Positions 5,407 to 24,226 are shown, numbered from the stretch's first letter. The stretch is DNA of 24,488 nucleotides from a virus (IMGVR_UViG_3300027833_000210:1-24488), one strand, 5' to 3'. Made by a program: numbers and translations. Notes: generated from the sequence alone by a model not told the origin.

Positions 5407-7287
5407 TTATAGTATGTCACAGCCGCCGCCAACGCAGGCAAGCTCTTGTGATCCGGTTGTGTTATCTTCTTTTTCAAACTGGGCTAAATCTTCCCACTTC
5501 ACTTCTTGTGGCATTGCTGCCAACAATTCTTCGTACTTCTCCGCAGTAATATCTTCATATGGAGCTTGCTGATAAACGTGATCGCTTGTTGGAAGTAAAC
5601 TAATTCCAGAACATAGATCAAAATTATCCCAAATCCACTGAGCTACCTGCAAGTACTCACTGTCTGTATAGTATACAGTTACACTTGGCTTATGTTCACA
5701 CCAGTGATTCTGATACGCTTTCCAAAGAGCCAACTGTTCCATAGCCCCTACTTCTTTCACACATGTACTAGACTCTGGCGCTTTAACCGGGAAGCTAAAG
5801 ACTACAGAAGAGGGCGACATTACATCGTTTTCTACTGGGAATCCTGCTTGCTCCATATAGAGTGCAAGTGGATCTTTTTTGTCTGAACGTACACGGCGAA
5901 TGTAATGCTTGCTGAAACGAGGATGAATACCGGAAGCACTATCAACAAGCTGAGAAACAGTACCACTTGGCTTGACGCATGTAATAGCGACAGACTGGTT
6001 AACACCAATTCTTTCAGCCCATTCCTTATTTGTTGCAATACTAACATCTCTCATTTCCTCTAACCAACCGGCTAGTTCAGTATTATTAGGATCTCCGAGT
6101 ACTGCGTGATCCATAATACCTGTTAAACTTACGCCCAATAGTGCTTCTTCTTCAGTGTTACGCTTCCAGCGCACCCGCAGATACCTAAAGTCTGTTAGAC
6201 TCGATTGCAAAGTACCAATAATAGTAGCTTTACGAACTTTTTCTAACAAGGTTTCAAGAGTATCTTCTGCTCGTACTACTACTTCTGATAAGTTACAGAA
6301 CTCATTACTACGGAGAATAATCTCAGAGCAAGGGTTAGTACCAAAATCATGTGTAGCATCTCTACGACCGTTGCGAGCTGCAATCTTTTGAGCAGCTACG
6401 CGACTAAAGAGACCACGTTCACCTGCTTTAGACTCATACAAGTTTTTCATCTCGTTAAGGTATGCTTCGAAGTCTGGCTTCTCAGTATATGCTACAGAGT
6501 TGTTTGCTAGACGACGCTGACCTTGATCAACCCACCACTGTCCTGATTTAGCTTTAGACATACGCTGATCAGAAAGATTTGACAGACTGATAAGAGCAGA
6601 ACGACGTACACCGCCTACTACTACAATATCTGCAATCTTACATACAACATCGTGGCACTCAATACTTGTTAGCTTACGACCCGCCGCTTTTTGAAATACA
6701 CCAGTACAAAACTGGAATAAGTCAACCAAAGGCTCAGGTCCCGATGCACGACCACCAAAAGTTTTTAGTCTTGCACCTGCTGGACGTACTCGGCTCATGT
6801 CCCACTCGGGTAGTTTACCTGCATAAAGCATGGCAATCAACTCACGAAAGGCACTCGCCCATCCTAGCTTACTATCACTTACTACAATAGTAGAGCTTGT
6901 TTTGTGGAAAGTTTCGGCTACTTCTGGTAGTTTATTAATAAAATTACGTTCTACACTGAAACCTACTCCTGTTCCACACATCAACACATACATAAGCTCG
7001 TCAAAAGCTCGTGGATGGTCAATATGCAAATAACTACAGTTAAAACCTGCTACGTTATCACGCTTGAGGGCTTCGCCTGCTGTCATCATACATCTCATAG
7101 AGGGCATAACTTCCATAGCGTGAATAGCATTATAAATCTCTTCACCGCTCTCGCTATCTAGTTGCTCTCTTTCTTTAAAGAAGTCTACATACCTGTGGCA
7201 AGTCTCTTCCCAGGTCTCTCTACGACCTTCGTCCTCTAGCCAGCGTGCATACCTACTCTTGTGTATAAAACTTTGATACTGATCCAT
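5407..7287 (-). CDS. nrdJ: Class II (adenosylcobalamin-dependent) ribonucleotide reductase, monomeric type
   Basis: Reduces ribonucleotides to deoxyribonucleotides for phage DNA synthesis. The start MDQYQSFIHKSRYARW and the NCSYLHI (Cys84), GTNPCSEI (Asn318, Cys320, Glu322) and FCNLSEV (Cys331) motifs fit the catalytic set. Cys320 would be the thiyl-radical cysteine and Cys84/Cys331 the disulfide pair. The C-terminal CVGGGC (Cys618, Cys623) is the shuttle pair. The pattern resembles the monomeric Lactobacillus-type RTPR. There is no N-terminal ATP cone and no radical-tyrosine partner gene nearby, so cobalamin dependence is the best reading. At 626 residues it is about 110 shorter than the Lactobacillus enzyme. 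The ATG overlaps the FEN stop by 1 nt (TAATG), indicating coupling. Substrate level (NDP or NTP) cannot be read with certainty. Confidence 0.93.
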   Translation of the reverse strand: MDQYQSFIHKSRYARWLEDEGRRETWEETCHRYVDFFKEREQLDSESGEEIYNAIHAMEVMPSMRCMMTAGEALKRDNVAGFNCSYLHIDHPRAFDELMYVLMCGTGVGFSVERNFINKLPEVAETFHKTSSTIVVSDSKLGWASAFRELIAMLYAGKLPEWDMSRVRPAGARLKTFGGRASGPEPLVDLFQFCTGVFQKAAGRKLTSIECHDVVCKIADIVVVGGVRRSALISLSNLSDQRMSKAKSGQWWVDQGQRRLANNSVAYTEKPDFEAYLNEMKNLYESKAGERGLFSRVAAQKIAARNGRRDATHDFGTNPCSEIILRSNEFCNLSEVVVRAEDTLETLLEKVRKATIIGTLQSSLTDFRYLRVRWKRNTEEEALLGVSLTGIMDHAVLGDPNNTELAGWLEEMRDVSIATNKEWAERIGVNQSVAITCVKPSGTVSQLVDSASGIHPRFSKHYIRRVRSDKKDPLALYMEQAGFPVENDVMSPSSVVFSFPVKAPESSTCVKEVGAMEQLALWKAYQNHWCEHKPSVTVYYTDSEYLQVAQWIWDNFDLCSGISLLPTSDHVYQQAPYEDITAEKYEELLAAMPQEVKWEDLAQFEKEDNTTGSQELACVGGGCDIL

Positions 7288-19731: not shown

Positions 19732-20457
19732 TTAAGCTGAGGCTTTTTCTTTCTTAGAAGCGCCATCATAGTCAGCGGCTGAAAGGCCACGACGAGTGAG
19801 CATAGTCTTAACGCCACGGGCGGTCTTACCAATTTGCTCTGCGATAGCTTCGACAGTCTGGCCACCAATATCAACGATGTCAGCCAATGGATCTTCTTTA
19901 GAAGCGCCTTTGGTAGTCTCTTGACGTGGGATAGCGTCGATGTCGCCTGAACGAAGGAGGCTAAGAGCCTTACCACGAACAGAGTTTACTGAGCGATCAA
20001 GTGCAGTAGCAATTGCTTCTACAAAAGCGCCGTCTTGTACCATAGATACAAAAGTTACTTCTTCAGCTTCAGAGTACGTGCGTACTGATTCAACTTTAGG
20101 AGCAGGCTTAACGTGACCAGTCAGTTCCATAGACAAGATCTTGCCTTGGATTGACTTAGCAGAAAAGTGACCATCTTCAAAATGACCAGCAATCTCAGCA
20201 TAAGTATACTCGCCGCTGTTGTCAGAGACAAAAGCTGCAAGGGTTGCTTCTTGTGCATCGGTAAACGCACGAGTAGCTCCGGCAGAAGCCAGCTCTACAT
20301 CATGACCCATCTTTCGCAATTTGCTAGAGATAGAACGAGTAGAGGTTTCAAGCTGATCAGCTGCTTCCGCAACAGTAGCTTGGGATACGGGGCTTTCGCC
20401 ACCGACAAATTCAGTTAGTTGAGCTGTACGCTCTTCAGTCCACTTAGGTAGTGCCAT
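19732..20457 (-). CDS. Multi-module HTH DNA-binding protein (241 aa)
   Basis: Four related segments are visible: residues 6-54 (WTEERTAQLTEFV to SISSKLRKMG), 65-116 (FTDAQEATLAAFV to SIQGKIL), 128-175 (YSEAEEVTFVSMV to SVRGKALSLLRSG) and 189-225 (DPLADIV to GVKTMLTRRG). Each ends in a putative recognition helix with the pattern S/A-x-x-S/G-V/I-x-x-K-L. This looks like an array of Myb/SANT- or winged-HTH-like modules, so sequence-dependent dsDNA binding is likely. By position (between ligase and helicase) and size it could be an analogue of T5 D5, an abundant DNA-binding regulator; that is from memory. It follows LigB by 4 nt with a GGAG Shine-Dalgarno. The tail (KKEKASA) is basic. Confidence 0.82.
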   Translation of the reverse strand: MALPKWTEERTAQLTEFVGGESPVSQATVAEAADQLETSTRSISSKLRKMGHDVELASAGATRAFTDAQEATLAAFVSDNSGEYTYAEIAGHFEDGHFSAKSIQGKILSMELTGHVKPAPKVESVRTYSEAEEVTFVSMVQDGAFVEAIATALDRSVNSVRGKALSLLRSGDIDAIPRQETTKGASKEDPLADIVDIGGQTVEAIAEQIGKTARGVKTMLTRRGLSAADYDGASKKEKASA

Positions 20458-20461
20458 TATA

Positions 20462-21217
20462 TTATTCTCCGGTAAGAATTTTAAGGTTAGTTACAATTTG
20501 AATGCCAGCATCTCTGGCCTTCTTGGTTTTTGCGGATTCAATACCGCTTTCGTTTACTAGGATTGTTACATCCTTTGTTAAACTAGATTTTACATTAAGT
20601 CCTACTGCTTCTAAAGCTGCATGAGCTTCTGCTTTAGTTTTGTAGCTTATCAACTTGCCTGTGATACACACAGTGTTGACTGATGTATTAACAGGGTTGC
20701 TCTCAGATCTTACAAACTTGAAGCTAAAAGGGAGCATACTTACTTGATAGAATTCCATCTCTAGCCACTGTAAAAGGTTGGCCGTAGATTTCTCACCGAG
20801 ACCGGCTTCGCGACATATATCGTAGTCTATTTCATCTATATCAATGCAAACTTTTGATAATTTATTCGCTGCTGTCTTCCCAATAAGAGGAATACTAAAC
20901 GCTGGTAATAGTACGTTTAGGGGCGCATCTATGGAGCGATGCAACTCATCTACTAACTTTGTTGCTAACTTCTCAGATCCGAGGGCGTTCTCTATTTCAA
21001 GTGCGTCTAGCTCATAAATCTCTTCGAGAGAGCGTATGTCTAGTTTAGCAATCGACTTAGGGCCAAGACCTTTGATCTTGAGAGTCTTTGCAAAGTGTTC
21101 GATAAGTTTTGCAACTTTCTCACCACAATGGGCGTTTCTACAATACAGAAGATGGTTGACTTCTTCTAACACCGAACTACAGCTAGGGCAGTTTGTTGGG
21201 GCTTCGATTATGGTCAT
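20462..21217 (-). CDS. ligB: NAD+-dependent DNA ligase, C-terminal subunit (zinc finger, HhH, BRCT)
   Basis: Supplies the DNA-binding half of a split NAD+ ligase. The N-terminal zinc finger has CPSC (Cys10, Cys13) and CRNAHC (Cys26, Cys31). Helix-hairpin-helix repeats follow (IKGLGPKSIAKL, 48-59; IPLIGKTAANKL around 107-118; AGLGEKSTANLLQWL around 137-151). A BRCT domain closes the protein (about 180-251: VCITGKLISYKTKAEA, then KDVTILVNE). There is no adenylation motif, which lies in the separate upstream gene. The ATG has AGAGGAA upstream. The gene has its own promoter P3, and the 241-aa HTH gene follows after 4 nt. A split ligase of this kind is known in phage T5. Confidence 0.93.
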   Translation of the reverse strand: MTIIEAPTNCPSCSSVLEEVNHLLYCRNAHCGEKVAKLIEHFAKTLKIKGLGPKSIAKLDIRSLEEIYELDALEIENALGSEKLATKLVDELHRSIDAPLNVLLPAFSIPLIGKTAANKLSKVCIDIDEIDYDICREAGLGEKSTANLLQWLEMEFYQVSMLPFSFKFVRSESNPVNTSVNTVCITGKLISYKTKAEAHAALEAVGLNVKSSLTKDVTILVNESGIESAKTKKARDAGIQIVTNLKILTGE

Positions 21218-21243
21218 CGTGATTCCTCTGAAATTGAATACGT

Positions 21244-21272
21244 ATTATACGGAGTTTTAAGGTTATTGTCAA
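21244..21272 (-). promoter_or_regulatory. Sigma70 promoter P3 (TTGACA-17-TATAAT)
   Basis: Perfect -35 (21267-21272) and -10 (21244-21249), 17-nt spacer, with AAAAAAATAGTTC upstream and CCG before the -10. It lies between ligA and ligB and gives ligB, the HTH-array gene and DnaB an independent start near 21237. Confidence 0.93.
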
Positions 21273-21296
21273 GAACTATTTTTTTCAAGGTAGCAA

Positions 21297-22226
21297 TCAA
21301 TCTAAGCGTCTCACGATGCGAGGTATGATTTCACCAGAACGTATAACTTCTACTTTACAACCTAACTCTAAATCAAGGTCGCGTATGTACTCAATATTGT
21401 GCAGTGTTGCTCGTGCCACTGTCGCTTCCCCTATAACACAAGGCTCTAGGATAGCTACTGGACTTACAACACCGCTCTTACCCAACTGCCATATAACCTC
21501 TAGCAGCGTGGTCTCCACTCCAGCAACCTGCTCTTTCAGAGCAAAGGCACCTCGTGGGTGTTTAGAAGTATGACCTAACTCATCGTACTTTTCATTTGAT
21601 TTGATACGAAATACTATACCATCCATAGGATAGTCAACTGCTTTAAAGCGAGTAACCACGTTCAAGCCAAACTTGTGCAAGATCTCAAGAGAGCAAGCAT
21701 AATTTTGTGCAAGGTGTGGGGTAGCATCATACGCAACAAATACTAAGGGGCGAGTTTTGAACTCTTCAAGACCCGAAAGTCCTTTAAGTCCGAGAGACCC
21801 CGAAGCGAAGTTACGAGAGTTAGGTATACTACTGGGAGCAACAACTTCCCCTGTAACCTGAACAAGACGTGTATCGCTAATCTGATTAGGGACTAGCTCA
21901 CGCATCTTATCAGTAATGTCACGGCCTTGAATGCCGTCCCCACGAGTGAGGGCTAGTTCAAGATTACCGTCAACATACAGAAGAGAAACTGCTGCACCAT
22001 CCAACTTAGGAGTATGCTGACACTCTTTGACATTAAGAGGAGCTTTGTCTATGTCGAAACACTTCTGCAAAGAGTACATTTGATACGTATGCGAAATCGC
22101 GTCAGTAACAGTGTAACCTACTTTGTTATAGCTATGTCGGTCTGCAAGAATATCAAATTCCGCATCAGAGATAGCAGGTGTACCTTCATAGTACAACTTA
22201 CTCATTCTGTCTAAAAAGTCCTGCAT
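21297..22226 (-). CDS. ligA: NAD+-dependent DNA ligase, catalytic subunit (adenylation plus OB fold)
   Basis: Seals nicks using NAD+. A short domain Ia is visible (LYYEGTPAISDAEFD, 11-25), followed by motif I KLDGAAVSL (Lys74 takes AMP), TRGDGIQGRDIT (94-105), motif III VTGEVVAP (124-131; Glu127), FVAYD (163-167), motif IV MDGIVFRI (201-208), motif V HPRGAFALK (223-231; Lys231) and an OB fold from VIWQLGKSG (244-252) through RATLHN (272-277) to the end. Motif IV has Arg207 where bacterial LigA has Lys. The protein stops at the end of the OB fold; the rest is ligB. The ATG has AGGAG 8 nt upstream and its own promoter P4. Confidence 0.95.
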   Translation of the reverse strand: MQDFLDRMSKLYYEGTPAISDAEFDILADRHSYNKVGYTVTDAISHTYQMYSLQKCFDIDKAPLNVKECQHTPKLDGAAVSLLYVDGNLELALTRGDGIQGRDITDKMRELVPNQISDTRLVQVTGEVVAPSSIPNSRNFASGSLGLKGLSGLEEFKTRPLVFVAYDATPHLAQNYACSLEILHKFGLNVVTRFKAVDYPMDGIVFRIKSNEKYDELGHTSKHPRGAFALKEQVAGVETTLLEVIWQLGKSGVVSPVAILEPCVIGEATVARATLHNIEYIRDLDLELGCKVEVIRSGEIIPRIVRRLD

Positions 22227-22251
22227 GGTATTCTCCTAAATAAGAAAGTAT

Positions 22252-22280
22252 ATTATACGGGACTTTAGCAAGATTGTCAA
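22252..22280 (-). promoter_or_regulatory. Sigma70 promoter P4 (TTGACA-17-TATAAT)
   Basis: Perfect -35 (22275-22280) and -10 (22252-22257), 17-nt spacer, AAATAGTTC upstream, CCCG before the -10. The stop of the PC4-like gene (22284-22286) lies 3 nt from the -35. It drives ligA from about 22245. Confidence 0.93.
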
Positions 22281-22283
22281 GAA

Positions 22284-22586
22284 CTATTTATACAGATCCT
22301 GGATAAGATCAGAGAAATGTTCTTCTATCAGGCTTTTAGATTCTGCTAGGGATAATATCTCTATTAGACCTGCAAACATCTCTCTTGAATTAGAAAGATC
22401 TAAAGGCATGGCTACTCCTTCGGGGGTAGGCTTCCACTCTTCGTCAAAGTCCATATAGTACTTTCGTAGATGCATATATTCTATACCGCGGAAAGTATTA
22501 ATGGTAAGTCTTATCTGTATTTCTTTAACTTCATCATAGTGTATAACACGAGAGTATGCTTCGGGAGCCTGGTGTAAGTCCATCAT
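22284..22586 (-). CDS. PC4-like single-stranded DNA-binding protein (100 aa)
   Basis: Residues about 21-80 match the PC4/p15 ssDNA-binding core: EIQIRLTINTFRGIEYMHLR (22-41), KYYMDFDEEWKPTPEGVAMP (42-61) and a helix EMFAGLIEILSLAES. This is the Rxx(I)-(RG)-(Y)-(LRKYY)-(D)-(KPT.EG) order seen in PC4 homologues. T5 phages are known to encode a PC4 homologue tied to recombination-dependent replication. The protein likely binds ssDNA as a dimer. The C-terminal part (81-100) is acidic/helical. The start overlaps the previous stop (ATGA). Neighbouring ligase and recombination genes fit the role. Confidence 0.85.
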   Translation of the reverse strand: MMDLHQAPEAYSRVIHYDEVKEIQIRLTINTFRGIEYMHLRKYYMDFDEEWKPTPEGVAMPLDLSNSREMFAGLIEILSLAESKSLIEEHFSDLIQDLYK

Positions 22587-22855
22587 GTTCTGCCTTCATT
22601 CTTTAAAATAGAGGCGAGAGGAACCACACTAGACACATTGGAAGGTCGTAGTAGACGGTATGAATCAGTATCCCAGCAGAAGAAAAGAAGAGTGTCATCA
22701 GTTTCCTTGGCTCTATTCTTCTTTTTCTGAATATAGGGAGTTGTGAAGTCTAAGGTACAAACATTGTACTTTAGCTTTTTGGAGTGTTCGCTACGATAAG
22801 TAATAACGGCATCCCCATATGAGCGCACTAGTTGCGCCAGCTCTTGCTTTTTCAC
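22583..22855 (-). CDS. Conserved phage protein of unknown function (90 aa)
   Basis: The frame can open at TTG 22885, but GTG 22855 has AAGGA 7 nt upstream and gives MKKQELAQLVRSYGDAV. A small alpha/beta protein with a helix (1-14) and strands VITYRS, KLKYNVCTLDFTT (27-39), DTLLFFCWDTDSYRLL (54-69) and PSNVSSVVPL (71-80). The C- and W-containing strand pair looks conserved but matches no family I can name. It is cotranslated with the PC4-like gene (ATGA overlap), so a functional link to ssDNA metabolism is possible. No consensus promoter is visible between the terminator at 22931 and this start. Confidence 0.75.
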   Translation of the reverse strand: MKKQELAQLVRSYGDAVITYRSEHSKKLKYNVCTLDFTTPYIQKKKNRAKETDDTLLFFCWDTDSYRLLRPSNVSSVVPLASILKNEGRT

Positions 22856-22930
22856 TATAGTTTCCTTCTGGTAGTAGTTTAGCAATCATTATTACTATGT
22901 ACTTACTCAGAGGTGATTTATACTGGATGC

Positions 22931-22962
22931 AAAAAAGCCCCGCTAGACGAATCTAGCAGGGC
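22931..22962 (-). terminator. Strong rho-independent terminator with UUCG loop
   Basis: On the - strand an 11-bp stem GCCCTGCTAGA / TCTAGCGGGGC with a TTCG loop is followed by TTTTTTG. It begins 11 nt after the stop of the 146-aa gene and makes that gene a monocistronic unit. Confidence 0.95.
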
Positions 22963-22973
22963 GATAGTTACTA

Positions 22974-23414
22974 CTAACCTTCGTCAGAAAGTAGGGTAGT
23001 AAAGTACTGTGCAGCTTTTCCGGTCAACTTAGAGATGATCTCTTCATCAACAGCTTTGCCAGCATCAGTGATAGCAACGGTGAGAGCTTCTTGAGCTGCT
23101 GCTTTGGAGACACGTGTGCCACCTGTAGCTGCGCCGGTAGAAGCGGCTTTTGCTGCTGGGGTTTTCTTAACGTAGACGCCAGCCTTTGTTAAAATCATGC
23201 GAACACCGTTAGGTGATTCGTCTAGTTCTTCTGCAATATCTTTTACAATCTCCATGCTAGTCTCTGGAGTAGGTGATGCTGCTTCGTATAAAGTTACTGC
23301 TTCTGCTTTCTTATCGTCGTCCCAAGCCACTTTGCGTGTCCTCTTGTTAGGGTTTTTGTTTCCTGGGCAGTCGCCCAGAGTTTTGAGTTGTTGTTCGTAG
23401 AATCTTTGTCCCAT
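22974..23414 (-). CDS. Small HTH DNA-binding protein related to the 241-aa array protein (146 aa)
   Basis: Residues about 31-83 form one module like those of the 241-aa protein: WDDDKKAEAVTLYEAA (31-46), then EIVKDIAEELDESPNGVRMIL (55-75) and TKAGVYVKK. This fits a helix-turn-helix with Ser67-Pro-Asn-Gly-Val in the recognition region. An Ala/Thr/Gly-rich linker (86-100) and a helical C-terminus (101-146) follow. An N-terminal CPGNKNPNKRTRK stretch is basic. It has its own consensus promoter P5 and a strong terminator, so high independent expression is likely. It may be a regulator or a nucleoid-like coating protein. Shine-Dalgarno GAGGA precedes the ATG. Confidence 0.82.
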   Translation of the reverse strand: MGQRFYEQQLKTLGDCPGNKNPNKRTRKVAWDDDKKAEAVTLYEAASPTPETSMEIVKDIAEELDESPNGVRMILTKAGVYVKKTPAAKAASTGAATGGTRVSKAAAQEALTVAITDAGKAVDEEIISKLTGKAAQYFTTLLSDEG

Positions 23415-23438: not shown

Positions 23439-23468
23439 ATTATACGGGAAAAATCACCATGTTGTCAA
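23439..23468 (-). promoter_or_regulatory. Sigma70 promoter P5 (TTGACA-18-TATAAT)
   Basis: Perfect -35 (23463-23468) and -10 (23439-23444) with an 18-nt spacer, AAAAAATAATTC upstream, CCCG before the -10. The TGA stop of the HNH gene (23465-23467) lies inside the -35. It drives the 146-aa HTH gene from about 23432. Confidence 0.92.
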
Positions 23469-24226
23469 GAATTATTTTTTGGATCCTCATCTAGCACTCC
23501 TGCAGTAACTAGGGATGCCCGCCTTTCTACCCAAGCATCTGGGTGTAGAGAGGATTTGTGACCGTTTTCCTTTGCGGGAAGATAAATAAGATTGCTCATA
23601 GCATGATCGCCTCCAAGATCTAAAGGCATCCAATGATCTACCTCATAGCCTTCTGGGCAATTCCTGTAAAACTCTTGAATTGCCGATAAATCTTCTTCAA
23701 TCGTACACCCTTTTACTTTTGCTCTACGGCGAGCACTAGCCTCTCTTTTTACCTCTGGATTTTTTCTGTGGTACTCTTTTGTGTGCGCTAATTGATAGTC
23801 TTTATTGAACGTCTTTATACACATATGTTTGTACTCGGTTTCTCTTTGGGTTTTGGAACCTCTTAACACGTGAGAAAAAAGGTGCACTGGGTGAAAGCAC
23901 TCACAAGACTGACAGTAATGTACTTTAAGCACGTTATTGCAGAGCCAGGTTCTCCAAACTTTAAAGCTTGATTTTCCTAGTAACTCATTTATATTTGCTT
24001 TACCTGCGGCGCTTTCATATCCTTTGGCATTTTTCCAGCCGAGGAGCTGTCCTATCTCTGTTAGATCTTTACCATAAACCAATGCCTGTATTAGGTCCCC
24101 CCATGTGGTATTAGGTGTTCCACGTCGAGGAAAAATAATAGTCTCGGGGGAAGATATAATTTTTTTATCTATATAGTGGCTTAGAACTAAATTTGCTAAT
24201 TCTTTATCTGAGTAACTTAAATCCAT
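23465..24226 (-). CDS. HNH endonuclease with N-terminal HTH and Cys-rich region
   Basis: The C-terminal nuclease domain has GYEVDHWMPLDLGGDH (193-208; Asp197-His198), SNLIYLPAKENGHK (211-224; Asn212, Asn221, Lys224). This is the HNH metal-finger layout of phage homing-type enzymes. Upstream of it are a basic KREASARRRAKVKG segment (160-173), a Cys-rich region YCQSCECF (104-111) with Cys136, and an N-terminal HTH-like part DLTEIGQLLGWKNAKGYESA (54-73). Probably a free-standing homing nuclease or a phage-encoded DNA-cleaving factor. It may not serve replication. Its ATG overlaps the upstream stop by 1 nt, with GAGAGG before it. Confidence 0.87.
   Translation of the reverse strand: MDLSYSDKELANLVLSHYIDKKIISSPETIIFPRRGTPNTTWGDLIQALVYGKDLTEIGQLLGWKNAKGYESAAGKANINELLGKSSFKVWRTWLCNNVLKVHYCQSCECFHPVHLFSHVLRGSKTQRETEYKHMCIKTFNKDYQLAHTKEYHRKNPEVKREASARRRAKVKGCTIEEDLSAIQEFYRNCPEGYEVDHWMPLDLGGDHAMSNLIYLPAKENGHKSSLHPDAWVERRASLVTAGVLDEDPKNNS

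Follow-up and report, generated by a model that had tools for sequence, protein, structure and literature searches.

What do proteins built from arrays of helix-turn-helix (HTH) domains do in the replication module of a phage? The question is raised by a viral record of 24,488 bases (IMGVR_UViG_3300027833_000210:1-24488, hereafter the window), the minus strand of which bears a T5-type replication module, and in particular by two of its genes, encoding proteins of 241 and 146 residues. A first-pass annotation of this DNA had described four related HTH modules in the larger protein and one more in the smaller, and had proposed a phage regulatory or DNA-coating system that might correspond to the role of D5 in phage T5. 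Both open reading frames are present as described. The larger protein is clearly an orthologue of D5 of T5, as judged from its sequence match and gene order, and the smaller is, by sequence, a D3 protein of the T5 type. The window D5 is probably a double-stranded-DNA-binding protein of a T5-like phage, in which a chain of four HTH beads would coat DNA cooperatively and act as a switch between replication and late transcription, with D3 as an accessory. The proposal of a regulatory or coating system thus stands in general terms but is not new, as both proteins are new members of families already known from PHROGs and the annotation of T5. What is added is modest, namely the four-bead architecture of D5, the kinship of its modules with D3 and the T5 protein A2, and a conserved hairpin behind D5, which together provide useful detail and not a new system. 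The features are collected in Table 1.

Identity of the Two Proteins and Their Genomic Setting

A full-length match (residues 2-238, E 2.2e-42) links the 241-residue protein to PHROG 323 ("transcriptional regulator, D5-like"), and a profile search matched T5 D5 (T5.118, AAS77164.1; PHROG 323) at E 7e-97. It is 53% identical to D5 of Vibrio phage VCPH; identity is mostly 45-53% over the matching phage records and 46-53% to the D5 proteins of cultured phages, while identities of up to 99% to the window D5 are found in metagenomic viral contigs. The 146-residue protein matches PHROG 1725 (E 2.2e-28), to which T5 D3 (T5.113) belongs, and also records named "D3 protein". Nearly 900 phage records match the larger protein and nearly 900 the smaller; neither was matched in NCBIfam, and comparison with phage records at the DNA level found none alike.

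Gene order was counted over 216 viral contigs, using only those with enough flank: in 197 of 197 relatives the gene immediately before D5 is ligB, and a gene for a DnaB-type helicase follows it in 193 of 193. The order among relatives is D3 first, then a PC4-like gene, ligA, ligB, and D5. T5 itself has D3, two small open reading frames, ligA, ligB, D5, the DnaB-type D6, primase, and polymerase, and the window shares this order apart from a single HNH endonuclease gene inserted after D6 in T5. The ligB-D5-DnaB arrangement and the match to PHROG 323 both bear out the suggested correspondence of the larger protein to T5 D5. The module also encodes a class II ribonucleotide reductase, an exonuclease, an SbcC/D-like pair, a single-stranded-DNA-binding protein, a helicase, a PhoH-like protein, a DNA polymerase, a primase, the DnaB-type helicase, and a split NAD ligase.

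Four Related Modules in D5 and One in D3

Five modules were compared, comprising D5 residues 1-60 (M1), 61-122 (M2), 124-172 (M3), and 183-230 (M4), and D3 residues 26-86 (D3h). Profiles built from about 158 D5 and 130 D3 sequences were aligned with HHalign, each pair being set against 60 column-shuffled controls; the D3 profile was checked for contamination by D5 fragments, and a cleaned set gave the same result. Eight of the ten pairs reached E-values from 3e-9 to 4e-5 (M1-M2, 2e-5; M1-M3, 4e-5; M1-M4, 8e-6; M1-D3h, 3e-9; M2-M3, 3e-8; M3-M4, 2e-5; M3-D3h, 3e-6; M4-D3h, 3e-8), and none of their shuffles scored as high. The similarity extends over whole modules, the M2-M3 alignment spanning 44 columns at 32% identity and that of M1-D3h 53 columns. 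M2 is placed in the set, on sequence grounds, by way of M1 and M3. The D3 HTH profile independently matches three places in the window D5, the C-terminal domain of D3, used as a negative control, had no profile similarity to any HTH module, and a search of the window for further module-bearing proteins found no convincing third. HTH domains generally resemble one another, and the E-values are therefore evidence of kinship within the HTH fold; origin by duplication is likely for M2-M3 and for M1-D3h and less certain for the others.

Profile-profile tests, shuffle controls, and AlphaFold models thus agree on four related modules in the larger protein and a fifth in the smaller. The motif S-x-x-SV-x-x-KL, with which each module had been said to end, holds as an approximate pattern in all five but not in its literal form: the D5 versions are STRSISSKL, SAKSIQGKI, SVNSVRGKA, and TARGVKTML, that of D3 is SPNGVRMIL, and the consensus over the five is [ST]xx[SG][IV]xx[KMI][LIA].

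Predicted Structure and Conserved Residues

The AlphaFold model of D5 combines a mean pLDDT of 89 with a pTM of 0.39, which describes four helical beads without a fixed mutual arrangement, as expected for folded beads on flexible linkers. D3 (pLDDT 78) is predicted to form a single bead and, set apart from it, a helical C-terminal domain. In fold comparisons, for which matches within 1 Z were counted as tied, M3 resembles the DNA-binding domains of GcrA and Lrp (Z about 7; best match GcrA, Z 7.2, 3.4 Å over 48 residues), the similarity of M1 is to homeodomains (Z about 6.4), and M2-M3 align with Myb repeats bead by bead, with a root-mean-square deviation of about 13 Å over both beads. Small helical domains commonly give middling Z values, so that these comparisons fix the fold class and not the family. 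The D5 modules share the tri-helical HTH fold with the GcrA DNA-binding domain, the N-domains of Lrp/AsnC, homeodomains, and Myb R2R3, but have no full-length or family-level sequence relation to them, and D5 carries four modules in one chain.

Sequence models point in several directions. The best stretch of M4 against Pfam Sigma70_r4_2 (residues 196-222) scores 25.0 bits against a cut-off of 25.7, and this model matches 66 of the 67 D5 family members; a sigma factor, for which both region 2 and region 4 were sought in D5, is not indicated, as the region-4-like HTH was found without a match to region 2. Pfam Myb matches weakly in five of 67 members (best E 7e-4), and PF07750 GcrA weakly in 13 of 67, the fold match to GcrA being confined to its DNA-binding domain. 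MarR is represented by a weak match to PHROG 1687 (E 0.021, residues 25-56), and its two-strand wing is not seen in the models of M1, M2, or M3. Of the comparisons called for earlier (Myb/SANT, MarR, and sigma region 4), a tri-helical GcrA/Lrp, homeodomain, or Myb-like fold is favoured, sigma region 4 is represented by a sequence match, and MarR is not favoured. The two findings on which the HTH-array idea had been staked both went its way, HTHs being predicted in the structures and the modules being related. An XRE-type HTH has also been predicted in D5 of phage AKFV33 (PMC3326045).

Conservation is concentrated in the third helix of each module. Mean entropy in the D5 third helices is 0.43, as opposed to 1.18 in the remainder, and 24 of their 45 positions are invariant, compared with 38 of 196 elsewhere (Fisher p 1.5e-5). 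The conserved lysine and arginine residues sit in the third helices of all four beads, and the third helix of D3 follows the same trend. A pattern of this kind is the signature that would be expected of DNA-reading helices.

Kinship With the Pre-early Protein A2

When the D3 profile is run against the complete genomes of T5 and VCPH, it returns the pre-early protein A2 (T5.006), which together with A1 is needed for second-step DNA transfer (T5 annotation; PMC13250531; PMC11879866). A2 and D3 both belong to PHROG 1725 and align over their full length (HHalign E 2.6e-12), and the A2 HTH is more weakly related to D5 M1 (E 1.2e-5) and M3 (5e-5), scores that lie above all 40 shuffles. A2 differs in that its gene lies in the terminal repeat and is expressed pre-early, and no copy lies in the 24-kb window fragment; in viral contigs the VCPH A2 sequence as query found nothing, whereas the T5 sequence gave matches. 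These comparisons indicate that three T5 DNA-binding proteins, D5, D3, and A2, use one related bead. A link of A2 and D3 to D5 was not found stated in the literature searched, that between A2 and D3 being implicit in PHROGs. T5 D5 itself is the trigger of retron-Kva2, and the accessible part of the 2026 preprint on that system speaks of an HTH motif, not of four related modules or of D3/A2 kinship (PMC13405049).

In Vibrio phage VCPH (L003:4331-5251) an HNH endonuclease domain precedes the D3 domain in a fusion protein of 306 residues, perhaps a homing endonuclease captured in frame.

Transcription Signals Around D3, ligB, and D5

The smaller gene had been described as a unit with a consensus promoter and a strong terminator, and a consensus promoter and an intrinsic terminator are confirmed for it. 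The D3 promoter is conserved, 87 of 118 upstream regions of relatives scoring 11-12 and no shuffled region doing so, and the intrinsic terminator has a T6 tail; UUCG-loop hairpins occur in 36 of 120 D3 3' flanks of relatives, 31 of them with a T-rich tail. With T5 D3 the window D3 shares the HTH and C-terminal domain, the place upstream of ligA, and a promoter of its own, and it differs in being longer by about 25 residues at the N-terminus and in having a UUCG terminator immediately after the gene.

The start of D5 lies 4 nt past ligB. A perfect sigma70-type promoter precedes ligB itself, and the T5 record also annotates promoters before ligB. ligB probably carries D5 on its transcript, a structure that we infer. 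Regions upstream of D5 did not rise above background in a search for a promoter of its own. One candidate at 20484, matching 10 of 12 positions, was rejected; its -10 hexamer overlaps the start codon, and the corresponding regions of relatives score no better than shuffled ones.

The UUCG hairpin claimed behind both genes is found behind each. Behind D5, hairpins of at least 8 bp are present in 115 of 131 distinct 3' flanks of relatives, as against 11 of 154 shuffled flanks (the shuffles preserving base composition only), and their sequence varies. This recurrence includes T5-type phages, although the T5 record lists no terminator there. A T-rich tail follows the hairpin in 79 of 122 relatives but not in the window, where it may thus serve as a weak terminator, an attenuator, or a stabiliser of the mRNA end. 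Conservation of the hairpin suggests that transcripts are terminated or attenuated before the replicative helicase gene. Rfam gave no RNA family match in the hairpins or elsewhere. The window D5 therefore resembles T5 D5 in full-length homology, in its position, with ligB on one side and the gene of the DnaB-type helicase on the other, in the alignment of four modules, in the lack of its own promoter, and in the hairpin behind the gene; it differs in that the stem of the T5-type hairpin has another sequence and loop, and in the missing tail.

Five near-perfect sigma70-type promoters lie on the minus strand of the window (12428, 18296, 21272, 22280, and 23468); they share extra flanks, with TTC before TTGAC- and, in most, CG before TATAAT.

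Table 1. Coordinates of D5, D3, and associated features (window positions unless stated).
Feature	Position	Strand	Details
D5 orthologue, 241 residues, four HTH modules	19732..20457	-	PHROG 323, identity to VCPH D5, AlphaFold
D5 module M1, homeodomain-like HTH	20278..20457	-	Helices 8-18, 26-35, 40-49; profile similarity
D5 module M2	20092..20277	-	Helices 67-79, 86-92, 100-109; M2-M3 E 3e-8
D5 module M3, GcrA/Lrp-like HTH	19942..20088	-	Helices 130-141, 146-152, 157-170; GcrA Z 7.2
D5 module M4, sigma-region-4-like HTH	19768..19911	-	Helices 202-209, 213-223; Pfam Sigma70_r4_2 196-222
Hairpin between D5 and DnaB-type helicase gene, 11-bp stem, UUCG loop	19687..19712	-	No T-tract; 20 nt outside the interval first annotated
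ligB-like half of split NAD DNA ligase	20462..21217	-	PHROG 3498 E 2e-60; 4 nt upstream of D5
Sigma70-type promoter before ligB-D5, TTGACA-17-TATAAT	21244..21272	-	12/12 positions match
D3 orthologue, 146 residues, one HTH and helical C-terminal domain	22974..23414	-	PHROG 1725, annotated "D3 protein"
D3 HTH module, residues 26-86	23157..23339	-	M1-D3h E 3e-9, M4-D3h E 3e-8, 0/60 shuffles
D3 C-terminal helical domain, residues ~99-146	22977..23120	-	Helices 104-117, 124-129, 132-143
D3 intrinsic terminator, 11-bp stem, UUCG loop, T6 tail	22937..22962	-	
D3 promoter, TTGACA-18-TATAAT	23439..23468	-	12/12 positions match
A2	L322:3727-4134 (T5); AP014889 116009-116455		Outside window

Function of D5 and Its Alternatives

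The T5 record describes D5 as a "DNA-binding protein; required for DNA replication and late transcription; also is involved in shutoff", and by analogy the window D5 would bind DNA and be needed in both processes. D5 may be pictured as four small tri-helical HTH domains chained by flexible linkers, each offering a conserved basic recognition helix, such that one molecule would contact several turns of DNA. The ligB-D5 transcript would yield many copies, which probably cover phage DNA cooperatively, and D5 would then work as a switch, supporting replication, turning down early transcription, and allowing host RNA polymerase to transcribe the late genes. The probable role of D3 is that of an accessory DNA-binding protein at this stage, and the related A2 would use the same HTH in DNA entry. 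D5 is said to have been purified in 1979 as a double-stranded-DNA-binding protein. The T5 annotation, the domain architecture, and the conservation pattern make DNA coating, together with a late-transcription switch, the likeliest mechanism. Virion preparations of the T5-like phage phiR2-01 contain the D5 homologue as one of their most abundant proteins, which fits an abundant DNA-associated protein, although D5 has not been reported from T5 virions (PMC8624392).

Several observations weigh against this explanation. The fold matches reach no more than a modest Z of 7.2, Foldseek against the PDB gave no match below E 1e-3, and sequence searches for solved homologues found none convincing for D5, nor for D3 or A2. 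M2 is weak in direct comparison with M4 (E 0.007) and D3h (E 0.015). D5 is acidic overall (isoelectric point 5.1; 27 lysine and arginine residues vs. 36 aspartate and glutamate), which disfavours a purely electrostatic coating, so that DNA binding would rely on the third helices and not on bulk charge. No tandem or clustered repeats fit for an operator array were found in the window, where the chief direct repeats are simply the promoters, each present once, and the earlier idea of an array binding several tandem sites is accordingly not upheld.

It is possible, though rather unlikely, that D5 is instead a sequence-specific late activator, the four HTHs of which read one composite site and recruit host RNA polymerase via sigma70, like GcrA in Caulobacter. 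The best fold match of M3 and the weak PF07750 matches to GcrA, the near-universal Sigma70_r4_2 match, and the annotated need for T5 D5 in late transcription all agree with such a role, as do recognition helices that differ between modules while each is nearly invariant across phages, as if each read its own bases. These matches, however, are to small and common HTH folds, with scores within 1 Z counted as tied, and a pure activator would leave the need for T5 D5 in replication unexplained. The phiR2-01 abundance has a further possible meaning, that the main task of D5 is protection or packaging, in which it would cover phage DNA against nucleases of the host or of phages and partly enter the virion, its effects on transcription being indirect; this is very unlikely, since the same study notes that D5 had not been found in T5 virions, which leaves room for carry-over (PMC8624392), and the T5 annotation records roles in transcription and replication. 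As to origin, the four modules could be unrelated HTHs recruited separately, or alike only as members of the HTH superfamily, without internal duplication. Some score about as highly against general Pfam HTH models as against one another (Sigma70_r4_2, E 1.5e-5; HTH_23, E 0.0018) and M2 and M4 are hardly similar in direct comparison, but M2-M3 and M1-D3h match across the whole module at scores that shuffles never reach. Either origin is quite improbable.

In T5, replication and late transcription are tied together by D5, and the bead architecture, being common to D3 and A2, would allow single domains to be deleted one by one. It also bears on how retrons recognise D5. T5 D5 triggers the type IX retron retron-Kva2, is toxic alone, and has a mass of about 26 kDa in mass photometry, hence monomeric; AlphaFold3 predicts that its HTH binds multicopy single-stranded DNA (msDNA), and of the two escapers one was mutated in D5 and D2 and the other in D3 (PMC13405049). 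A more speculative and on the whole doubtful idea is that T5-like phages govern infection through a single HTH bead that has been amplified, found once, next to a C-terminal domain, in A2 (during DNA entry) and in D3 (early), and four times in D5 (replication and late switch), the number of beads setting the spread along DNA, and that type IX retrons sense this bead. If true, such sensing could explain why mutations of D5 and of D3 both arise in retron-escape phages.

Neighbouring Genes

Between D3 and ligA, positions 22284-22586 encode a protein of 100 residues with a PC4-like single-stranded-DNA-binding coactivator domain (PF02229, E 1e-9), which occupies the place of T5.115 and is found between D3 and ligA in most relatives. 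The ribonucleotide reductase (5407-7287, 626 residues) is of the adenosylcobalamin-dependent (class II) type and scores 328.8 bits against the NCBIfam RTPR cut-off of 340.05. Upstream of the D3 promoter, positions 23465-24226 encode an HNH/endonuclease VII-like protein of 253 residues.

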